64,000 nucleotides of DNA from positions 558,001-622,000 of the forward strand of contig NZ_JAPDPF010000001.1 in NCBI RefSeq assembly GCF_026283925.1. The letters run 5' to 3'. Positions 59,418 through 64,000 of this stretch are shown here, piece by piece. The position numbers were made by a program, and so were the translations under genes. The notes beneath the pieces are model-generated. The model worked only from the letters and a program-made list of their open reading frames with translations, had not been told where the DNA came from and made no database searches. The first letter of the stretch is position 1. Every line of letters starts with the position of its first letter. Source of the DNA: Dyella halodurans. GTDB lineage: Bacteria; Pseudomonadota; Gammaproteobacteria; Xanthomonadales; Rhodanobacteraceae.

Positions 59418-60536
59418 ATGGCGAAAACGACGCGTAGTGCTACAGCCACCAAGTCGCAGAAGGGAAAAGCTGCGGGCAAGGTGAAGGACGTCAAGGCCAG
59501 CAAGAAAGCTCCTGCCGTCGGGCGGGGAGCGAAAAGCGTGCCGGCCAAGGCAGCCGTCAAGGCGGCCCCGGCCAAGAAACCGGCTACCAAGAAGGTTGCG
59601 GCCAAGCAGGCCGTAGCGAAGAAACCGGTTGCCAAGAAAGCCGCGAAGTCCCCGGCAAAGCGCGTCGTTGCGAAGAAAGCTGCTCCCAAACCGGTGGCCA
59701 AGAAGGCCGCGCCGGCCAAGAAGCCGCCGGCCAGCAAGGCCGTTGTAAAGAAAGTGGCGAAGCCCGTAGCCAAGAAGGTGACGGCACCCGCCAAGAAGCA
59801 ACCACCCCAGGCGGTGGCCAAGCCGGCTGCAACCCCGGTGAAGGCCGCCAAGGCGCCACCGGCAAAGCCGGTCGCCAAACCGGCTGCCAAGCCTGCACCG
59901 GCCAAGCCCGCTCCCAAGCAGGCGGCTCCGGCGAAGGCAGCGCCAGCGCCCGTCGAGCGGGCCAAACCCGCAGCTCTGCCCATAACGGGTAAAGTAGCGA
60001 GTGCTACCGCTCGTCATACCACTCCTCAAAAGCAGAAAGCCCAGCAGTCCTCGATGAATAATCCTGCAACTCTCGACAATGGCATCACCCGCGAAGACGG
60101 CCGCTACGCGCTGCCTTCCACCACCACGATCGACCTGCCCAAGGGTTACCGTCCCTCGAACGACGAGGAGTACATGAACCCCAAGCACCTGGCCTATTTC
60201 CGCAACAAGCTGCGCGAATGGCGCGACCAGCTGGTGGAAGAGTCGCGTCAGACCATGGAAAACCTCCGTGACGAAGTGCGCGACGTGGGCGACGAAGCCG
60301 AGCGCGCCACCCGTGAGACGGAAAACTCGCTGGAACTGCGCACGCGCGATCGCTACCGCAAGCTGATTTCCAAGATCGACAAGGCCTTGCGCCGCATCGA
60401 AGAAGGCCGTTACGGCTACTGCGAAGAGACGGACGAGGAGATTGGTGTCGAGCGTCTCGATGCCCGCCCGATCGCCACGCTGTCGCTGGACGCGCAGGAG
60501 CGTCGCGAGCACCTGCAGAAGCAGATGGGCGACTGA
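59418..60536 (+). CDS. dksA: DksA family regulator with histone H1-like N-terminal domain
   Basis: The product has 372 residues. Residues 1 to about 210 are almost only Lys, Ala, Pro and Val with AKKP/VAKK repeats, like histone H1 tails. The DksA core begins near Met213 (position 60054). The coiled-coil tip reads D292-E-A-E295-R-A297, close to the E. coli DxxDxA. Of the four zinc-finger cysteines only Cys335 remains; the others are Thr338, Ser356 and Ala359. DksA binds RNA polymerase with ppGpp. A downstream start at 60054 could yield the core alone. GAAGGG precedes the ATG. Confidence 0.88.
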
Positions 60537-63000: not shown

Positions 63001-63576
63001 ATGACCAAGATGGTGTTTCCCGCGCTGGTGCTAGCCCTGATGGCCTGTGGCCTGACGGTTACCAGCGCATTTGCGCAGGATGCGCGGTACCAAAGTCAAA
63101 ATCCGAATCAAAATCAAGCCCAGAACGACGACAACACCCACTACGGCTGGGCTGATGTATTGCGCGTCGATCCCGTCTACGGGGTCGCCCGCACCGAGGT
63201 GCCGCGCCAGGAATGCTACGACCAGCAGGTCGTGCAGACCGCGCCGCCGCAGGGCAGCGCAGCCGGCACCATCCTGGGCGCCGTCGTGGGCGGCGTGCTG
63301 GGCAGCACCGTCGGCCACGGCAGTGGGCGCACCGCCGCCACCGTGGTGGGTGCGGTCGCCGGTGGCGCGGTCGGCAACAGCGTGTCGGCCGCGGGCGGTG
63401 GCGAGTATCAGAGCACCGAGACCCATTGCCGCCAGGTGGCTGCGGTGAGCGAGCAGCGGCGCATCATGGGGTACGACGTGGAGTATCGCTATCGCGGCGA
63501 GGTCTATGTTTCCCGGCTCAACTACGACCCGGGCGAGCGCCTGCGGGTGCGGGTAAGCGTCGCGCCCGCCGACTGA
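63001..63576 (+). CDS. Glycine-zipper 2TM domain protein
   Basis: The product has 191 residues. A signal peptide (about 1-25, ending SAFAQ), an Asn/Gln-rich stretch (QSQNPNQNQAQNDD), then a glycine-zipper membrane segment (AGTILGAVVGGVLGSTVGHG and AATVVGAVAGGAVGNSV), and a C-terminal domain (YDVEYRYRGEVYVSRLNYDPG). This is the 17-kDa surface antigen-like pattern of an outer membrane or periplasmic protein. GGAGG lies 8 nt before the ATG 63001. Confidence 0.85.
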   Translation: MTKMVFPALVLALMACGLTVTSAFAQDARYQSQNPNQNQAQNDDNTHYGWADVLRVDPVYGVARTEVPRQECYDQQVVQTAPPQGSAAGTILGAVVGGVLGSTVGHGSGRTAATVVGAVAGGAVGNSVSAAGGGEYQSTETHCRQVAAVSEQRRIMGYDVEYRYRGEVYVSRLNYDPGERLRVRVSVAPAD

Positions 63577-63604
63577 GACTTGCTGCCCGATCCGTTCAGC
63601 TACG

Positions 63605-63627
63605 CCGCCGCCTTCGGGCGGCGGTTT
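63605..63627 (+). terminator. Terminator-like hairpin after the glycine-zipper gene
   Basis: An 8-bp GC stem (CCGCCGCC / GGCGGCGG) with loop TTCG is followed by TTT only. Confidence 0.6.
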
Positions 63628-63713
63628 GCTGTGGGGGCCCCGCCAGCCCATCCTGCTTGTTGCATGGCAGCGAAAATCCCGTCATGATGCGCGTTCAACC
63701 ACCCGGAACCCCC

Positions 63714-63818
63714 ATGTCCGCAGCCGTCTATACCGCCACCGTCCTTACCAGCGCCCGCATGGCTGCTGGCATGACGTCGCGTGCGCGCCGACCGCTGGTC
63801 CGACATTCGGCCGGGTAG
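63714..63818 (+). CDS. Candidate arginine-rich leader peptide
   Basis: A 34-codon frame in the leader of the next gene has CGGAA about 7 nt upstream of its ATG. The residues near the end are TSRARRPLVRHSAG, with Arg at 15, 23, 25, 26 and 30; two are the CGA codon, rare in GC-rich genomes. The frame continues upstream to ATGs at 63687 and 63684. Its stop (63816-63818) overlaps a segment that can pair with the terminator arm. Whether it is translated is not shown by sequence alone. Confidence 0.5.
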   Translation: MSAAVYTATVLTSARMAAGMTSRARRPLVRHSAG

Positions 63819-63880
63819 GCTGTCGCACGCGTTTCATGTGTATCGACGACAAAACCCGGCCTGCAGCCGGGTTTTTTTGT
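63809..63880 (+). promoter_or_regulatory. Candidate transcription attenuator (antiterminator/terminator switch)
   Basis: GGCCGGGT (63809-63816) is fully complementary to ACCCGGCC (63854-63861), which includes the 5' arm of the terminator at 63852-63874. The two pairings exclude each other. A ribosome stalled on the Arg codons at 63780-63803 would leave GGCCGGGT free; one that reached the stop at 63818 would cover it. This is the layout of leader-peptide attenuation. Confidence 0.45.
63852..63880 (+). terminator. Terminator in the leader of the carbamoyltransferase gene
   Basis: A 9-bp stem (AAACCCGGC / GCCGGGTTT), loop CTGCA, followed by a T run (TTTTGT). It lies about 90 bp upstream of the start codon at 63966 on the same strand, and downstream of no complete gene, which suggests a regulated terminator. 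Confidence 0.85.
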
Positions 63881-63965
63881 TTTTGGATTTTGTTTCGACG
63901 CGGGTTGGCCCGCCACTAGACCACCGGCCTACCGGGCCGACCGATTCGACAAAGGTATTCACGAG

Positions 63966-64000
63966 ATGACTCTTCGCCATTTTCTGACCACCCAGGACTA
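63966..64000 (+). CDS. Carbamoyltransferase, N-terminal end (probably N-acetylornithine or ornithine type)
   Basis: The window ends 35 bp into this frame. The visible residues MTLRHFLTTQD are close to the start of Xanthomonas N-acetylornithine carbamoyltransferase (which I recall as beginning MSLKHFLNTQDW) and also resemble ordinary ornithine carbamoyltransferases. Either is in arginine biosynthesis. AAAGG lies about 10 nt before the ATG. With so few residues the identity is provisional. Confidence 0.6.
   Translation, partial: MTLRHFLTTQD

Follow-up and report, generated by a model that had tools for sequence, protein, structure and literature searches.

What supply might the short, Arg-rich open reading frame (ORF) ahead of a carbamoyltransferase gene in Dyella halodurans sense, and what would it control? 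The stretch of DNA analysed here (the window; 64,000 nucleotides) ends at its 3′ side with the start of this gene, and the operon that it heads reaches past the right edge and was read from the continuing DNA. A sequence-only reading of the locus had proposed an arginine attenuator composed of the short frame, a terminator and a segment that competes for the terminator stem, placed before a gene resembling argF or argF′. The gene beginning at ATG 63966 proved to be argF′, coding for N-acetylornithine carbamoyltransferase (AOTC; NF003384, E 1.3e-183, 610 bits where the cut-off is 288). It leads an arginine operon in the order argF′-argG-argE′-argB-argC-argH-proB-proA, with a few other ORFs interspersed. 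The genes behind the leader therefore make the amino acid that would be sensed, their products being AOTC, ArgG, ArgE′, ArgB (acetylglutamate kinase), ArgC and ArgH.

We conclude that positions 63714-63878 very probably form a ribosome-mediated transcription attenuator of the arginine operon, and comparison among related sequences supports the attenuator proposed earlier. The anatomy, conservation, covariation, geometry and synteny of the element, and the absence of ArgR, were observed; ribosome stalling, termination and the response to arginine are what we infer. The features are as follows.

63660..63688, + strand: putative promoter TTGCAT-17 nt-CATGAT, a weak match read by eye
63714..63818, + strand: leader peptide ORF of 34 aa, MSAAVYTATVLTSARMAAGMTSRARRPLVRHSAG and stop, recognised by conservation and by purifying selection on its core
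63778..63831, + strand: possible protector structure (1:2 type) joining the Arg-codon region with the stop region and just beyond, suggested by the minimum-energy fold
63780..63791, + strand: regulatory Arg codons CGT (GCG) CGC CGA, encoding R-A-R-R, recognised by conserved Arg and CGA enrichment
63789-63791, + strand: presumed stall point, the CGA codon for the third Arg of R-A-R-R, from the CGA bias
63801..63803, + strand: further CGA Arg codon between core and stop, not universal, from the frequency of CGA after the core
63810..63816, + strand: segment 2, GCCGGGT, the antiterminator 5′ strand, which covers the two final codons and extends one base into the stop, from spacing and pairing with segment 3
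63851..63878, + strand: intrinsic terminator hairpin (segments 3:4) and T run, from stem, T tail, energy and covariation
63854..63860, + strand: segment 3, ACCCGGC, the terminator 5′ arm and antiterminator 3′ strand, from pairing on the alignment and folding
63966..64000 and running beyond the window, + strand: start of argF′, first gene of the arginine operon, from the NF003384 match

In the proposed mechanism, the attenuator would sense charged arginine tRNA and control the arginine operon. A ribosome would begin the leader ORF soon after the onset of transcription. If Arg-tRNA is short, this ribosome would stall at R-A-R-R, most of all on its slow CGA codon, leaving segment 2 (GCCGGGU) free to pair with the terminator 5′ arm, and transcription would proceed into argF′. 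If arginine is plentiful, the ribosome would reach the stop codon and cover segment 2, such that the terminator would form and transcription would end ~180 nt from the putative start.

The Arg-rich frame is present much as the sequence-only reading described it, ending in ...MTSRARRPLVRHSAG with CGA codons at 63789-63791 and 63801-63803 and a TAG stop at 63816-63818. A start at position 63684 did not hold, the conserved start being ATG 63714 (MSAAVYTA..., 34 aa). The in-frame ATGs at 63684 and 63687 overlap the putative -10 box, and the stretch they would add is unconserved, with conservation from 63714 on. Besides this start, that reading overlooked two features treated below, namely peptide-level conservation around the Arg codons and orthology to the catalogued RNA Xoo5 (RF02242).

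Conservation of the leader peptide and its Arg codons

The leader precedes argF′ in all 81 loci chosen by their AOTC gene, which comprise the window and the best 80 of 443 relatives (Dyella, Rhodanobacter, Frateuria, Luteibacter, Tahibacter and others), and its peptide has the form ...SARxAAGMTSRARRP....AG or near it. A set of 210 loci was assembled from the window, these best 80 of 443 relatives, 90 gene-chosen loci of families f1 and f2, nine loci of f3 and f4, and 30 loci chosen by their Xoo5 match (f1-f12, g45 and the like are code labels for families and genera). One locus is cut by a contig end, and the same leader stands before argF′ in 209/209 evaluable loci of the four families f1-f4. 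The counting patterns demanded SRAR[RH] behind a [GS][MLI][TAS]-like triplet, and no evaluable f1-f4 locus failed. Some species were sampled twice, and the f1/f2 loci represent 168 distinct leaders.

The core of the peptide, A[AS]GMTSRARR, is held with unusual strictness. Its M, S, R, A, R and R residues are invariant among 129 distinct 14-codon haplotypes, and thus RARR, whose conservation in relatives the earlier reading had proposed to check, occurs in every one. Thr is retained in 128 of these haplotypes and Gly in 126, each through four different codons, and four codons likewise encode the Ala at -5; the Ser codon is TCG in 126/129 haplotypes, for which we have no explanation. Among leaders of common length (79 from f1 and 65 from f2), pN/pS from A(-5) to the last core Arg (R3) is 0.061 between families, 0.007 within f1 and 0.090 within f2, whereas the five codons past the Pro that follows the core give 0.99-1.04. 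This difference (~0.06 versus ~1.0) implies that the frame is probably translated, that the chain is constrained as a peptide through RARR, and that the remainder is mere spacer. The N terminus differs between families. The MTSRARR coding pattern was found once per genome in 9/9 genomes, and no Pfam family matches the leader peptide at E values up to 10.

Choice among synonymous Arg codons is equally uneven. All 168 distinct f1/f2 leaders use CGT or CGC for the first two core Arg residues, and 164 of them use CGA for the third; across 80 argF′ genes, CGA accounts for 28 of 1545 Arg codons. Where Arg codons occur after the core, 45/67 are CGA. The codons CGT, CGC and CGA share one inosine tRNA, which reads CGA poorly. 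High sensitivity of an attenuator is held to need a particular synonymous codon choice (PMC1183508).

Conservation of the peptide exceeds what plain codon starvation needs, and this suggests a contribution of the nascent chain to stalling. We advance such a contribution tentatively, on the strength of the conserved residues before the Arg codons. With similar reserve, and at somewhat less than even confidence, we picture the leader as a hybrid of starvation attenuator and arrest peptide, in which A[AS]GMTSRARR would hold the ribosome at the slow CGA and a small drop in Arg-tRNA would throw a sharp switch. In this hybrid, the f2 ORF would lie on a nearly leaderless mRNA with ribosome and polymerase starting in step, and the peptide would have become fixed in four related families from an ancestral attenuator with a plain Arg run.

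Competing RNA structures and their spacing

The terminator and its competitor are both where the sequence-only reading had placed them. The terminator stem (63851-63875) has 10 pairs and folds at -16 kcal/mol, the antiterminator (63809-63860) folds at -22.3 kcal/mol, and the 8-nt segment at the leader stop, GGCCGGGT (63809-63816), is fully complementary to ACCCGGCC (63854-63861). A scripted scan recovered a hairpin and T run after the stop in 204/209 rows. Of the remaining rows, L133 is a spurious ORF, and in four the hairpin is present but its T run is broken.

In an alignment of 89 f1/f2 sequences, the terminator is paired in 100% of cells and shows 63 double-sided changes (shuffle mean 21), with slid versions reaching at most 65% paired; the antiterminator is paired in 97.9% of cells and shows 37 such changes (shuffle mean 16), with slid versions reaching at most 55%, all cells being counted without a tree and not as independent events. 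Competing pairs that covary in relatives, another point on which the earlier proposal turned, are therefore present for both structures. At the key three-way columns, 45 of the 89 rows have C/G/C, 36 have U/A/U and 4 have U/G/C, with failure in the other 4.

Contiguous pairing of the stop-codon region with the terminator 5′ arm (G-U allowed) extends to at least six pairs in 185/204 loci, to five in 15 and to fewer in 4. Among upstream control windows a run of at least six pairs arises in only 123 of 7541, and among shuffles in 482 of 4080, and so this pairing is beyond chance. The antiterminator is weaker in f3 and f4, where 0/6 loci reach six pairs, and some f2 rows carry a second GCCGGG after the stop. 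RNAalifold applied to whole leader sets returned little besides the terminator. A 1:2 protector hairpin is suggestive only: the minimum-energy fold of 63760-63840 contains the protector structure with a z of only -1.4, and a related hairpin is paired in 70.1% of alignment cells compared with at most 51.5% when slid.

The position of segment 2 relative to the Arg codons is tightly kept. It begins 21 nt after CGA 63789-63791 in the window, and 20-22 nt past the CGA in 168 of 181 distinct leaders with at least five pairs. The stop codon of 14 of these 181 leaders lies merely 12-18 nt from the CGA, with segment 2 beyond it, and in all 14 segment 2 is still 19-22 nt from the CGA. Retention of this spacing despite the moved stop indicates an RNA element tied to the Arg codons, and overall the motif-to-stop distance varies more than the distance from motif to segment 2. 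A ribosome covers ~12-13 nt beyond its A-site codon. With a footprint of this size, a ribosome at the CGA would leave segment 2 free and a ribosome at the stop would cover it.

The transcript start was approached through promoter-like boxes and through the Xoo5 model. The -10 of a -35/-10-like pair ends 23-27 nt before the leader ATG in 96/111 f1 loci and 6-10 nt before it in 72/90 f2 loci, in a scan that picked the start codon with the best boxes and is biased towards fit. A strict promoter scan did not recover the putative promoter at 63660..63688. In the Xanthomonas-type loci L006-L010, L013, L020, L024 and L027, the start of the Xoo5 model lies 2 nt ahead of the leader ATG, and RACE mapping in X. 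oryzae had defined the Xoo5 5′ end (PMC3039613). The model 5′ end and the box distances together indicate that the f2 leader is probably read from a nearly leaderless mRNA, and the f1 leader from an mRNA with a short 5′ UTR.

Relationship to Xoo5 and alternative explanations

The Rfam model RF02242 (Xoo5) matches window positions 63712-63835 with 30.1 bits (E 5e-4), below its 50-bit gathering threshold. Searched in 398 genomes of the order, the model finds a match at E 0.001 in 162 and reaches the threshold in 84; each of its best 30 matches sits immediately ahead of argF′ (30/30). The original Xoo5 clone, from Xanthomonas oryzae, is an RNA of 124 nt that lies between PXO_00354 and PXO_00353 (PMC3039613, Table 2), the latter named N-acetylornithine carbamoyltransferase (Table 4 of the same source). 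Given the placement of the best matches and the identity of PXO_00353 as AOTC, Xoo5 is the argF′ leader, and the window leader is its orthologue on the basis of synteny and the shared peptide rather than of the Rfam threshold. The two share their position before argF′, a leader peptide and a terminator; they differ in that Xoo5 is catalogued as a ‘Xanthomonadaceae sRNA’ (PMC3039613) and the window copy is sub-threshold. The words ‘arginine’, ‘argF’ and ‘leader’ are absent from the main text of PMC3039613, and the paper, as far as it was available, assigns the RNA no function.

Several details of the Xoo5 searches deserve mention. A second Xoo5 match occurs in each of G136, G207 and G279, where the MTSRARR coding pattern is single. 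Four of 274 genomes in a sample of the class match Xoo5, three of them within the order; the fourth (L245), outside it, has no SRAR leader and has long open frames across the match, and was treated as chance. In an X. oryzae mutant without the small RNA Xoo1, the protein spots of AOTC (PXO_00353) and ArgG (PXO_00352) are among those that are down (PMC3039613, Table 4); both genes belong to the operon behind Xoo5.

If the short leader transcript were an independent regulatory RNA acting in trans, its attenuator features would be secondary. In Xanthomonas, Xoo5 was recovered by cloning and gave short bands of ~130 and ~100 nt on Northern blots (PMC3039613), sizes unlike those expected from the terminator: in the Xanthomonas-type locus L006 the Xoo5 model stops 8 nt short of the terminator stem, and the terminated transcript would be ~158 nt, which is longer than the Northern sizes, with processing possible. 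Leader RNAs can moreover act in trans (PMC4997734). However, a free-standing small RNA is not favoured by the invariable placement of the best 30 matches before argF′, the conserved part consists of a coding frame and neutral spacer, and terminator and antiterminator covary. We consider an independent RNA improbable, and a role in trans could in any case coexist with the attenuator. Chance occurrence of an ORF before an ordinary terminator has in its favour that G+C-rich DNA yields many Arg codons and GC-rich pairings; it is contradicted by the 209/209 conservation, pN/pS, CGA bias, covariation and spacing, and we give it almost no credence.

Peptide-level conservation opens two further possibilities. 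Ribosomes carrying particular nascent chains can sense metabolites, as with TnaC and SpeFL, and a ribosome with the GMTSRARR chain might sense free L-arginine (or a relative), in which case arrest and not codon starvation would set the switch. Such a sensor would account for the strongly conserved A[AS]GMTSRARR peptide, whose Thr, Ala and Gly codons vary synonymously, and at a CGA stall the conserved residues would adjoin the peptidyl transferase centre. Yet arrest at RARR would free segment 2 and turn the operon on with arginine, which is the wrong direction for biosynthesis. Arginine-driven arrest at the stop codon would instead need a fixed distance from motif to stop, and is disfavoured because that distance is the more variable one; in addition, distant families retain Arg clusters only. 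We therefore judge metabolite sensing unlikely. The same conservation could reflect a released regulatory peptide that acts in trans, of which the Sinorhizobium trp leader peptide is an example, but the five codons after the core seem unconstrained as peptide and the N terminus is not shared between families, and we regard this as very unlikely. A starvation attenuator, perhaps aided by the nascent chain, is the reading that we prefer.

Arginine control in the order and in known systems

Families more distant from the window keep the arrangement without the peptide. An Arg-rich short ORF precedes a terminator in 19 of the 21 f5-f11 loci examined; L126 (f6) and L141 (f10) have no Arg leader or terminator just upstream of argF′ and are possible losses of the attenuator. 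At least six antiterminator pairs are found in 12 of the 16 f5-f11 leaders scored and fewer in 4, the 12 including L137, where the terminator sequence is different (GCCAGGTT with acctggt). The f5-f11 peptides are devoid of MTSRARR, and Arg clusters are common to them. AOTC is detected at E 1e-100 in 357/398 genomes, with no f12 genome among them, and some f5, f8 and f9 genomes are likewise without a match at that value.

ArgR regulates the same pathway in E. coli. It differs from the present element in being a DNA-binding repressor (PF01316), and its family has no match in the genome of the window, the control being positive in 9/14. ArgR was found in 8/151 genomes of the order, all of them in f12. 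T-boxes read uncharged tRNA through direct RNA binding, whereas here a translated leader would do the sensing; arginine T-boxes (PMC1262725) have in common with it arginine control at the RNA level.

Enteric attenuators (trp, his, ilv, pheA and others; PMC1183508) resemble the argF′ leader in having a leader ORF with codons for the amino acid that the pathway makes, an antiterminator (II:III) and a terminator (III:IV) that exclude each other, and a starvation-sensitive choice of synonymous codon. They differ in that the amino acid here is arginine, that the peptide is conserved around its regulatory codons, and that the f2 ORF probably starts ~2 nt from the transcript 5′ end according to the Xoo5 model. 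The Salmonella speF leader orf34/SpeFL also has two consecutive Arg codons, a conserved peptide and ribosome pausing at low arginine, but its target is ornithine decarboxylase, which it controls via Rho, translation and RNase G, and no intrinsic terminator was found there (PMC6386406). Its peptide (DUF2618, PF10940, HIRRT core) is unrelated, and there is no HIRRT in the window leader. The Pseudomonas carA leader precedes a gene that feeds arginine synthesis, and a leader peptide was reported and attenuation proposed in P. aeruginosa; there, however, pyrimidines are named as the cause of attenuation, and the effect of arginine is attributed to transcriptional control of the ArgR type (PMC4997734).

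The mechanism is of a known kind; arginine would be a new branch of it, the fixed peptide is unusual, and in relatives the leader is probably almost leaderless. No arginine-biosynthesis attenuator with a translated leader was found among the listed matches in the open-access PMC literature, which is weak evidence of absence. If our reading is true, arginine joins the biosynthetic operons read by a translated attenuator, a bacterial group mostly without ArgR gains a route of arginine control, and the catalogued orphan small RNA Xoo5 gains a function. Residues fixed across many genera beside the regulatory codons, together with a freely drifting spacer, would also make nascent-chain sharpening of starvation attenuators directly testable.

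The surroundings of the leader offer some minor observations. An ORF at 63001-63576 (+) encodes a small protein that is rich in glycine and has a signal-like N terminus, and a terminator-like hairpin lies downstream of it at 63603-63623. Several loci of the order have coding sequence related to this ORF ahead of their argF′ leader, which indicates a conserved neighbourhood. Further upstream, the protein encoded at window positions 59418-60536 (+) has a C-terminal part that we take to be DksA/TraR-like, preceded by a long, Lys/Ala/Pro-rich and histone-H1-like N-terminal stretch.
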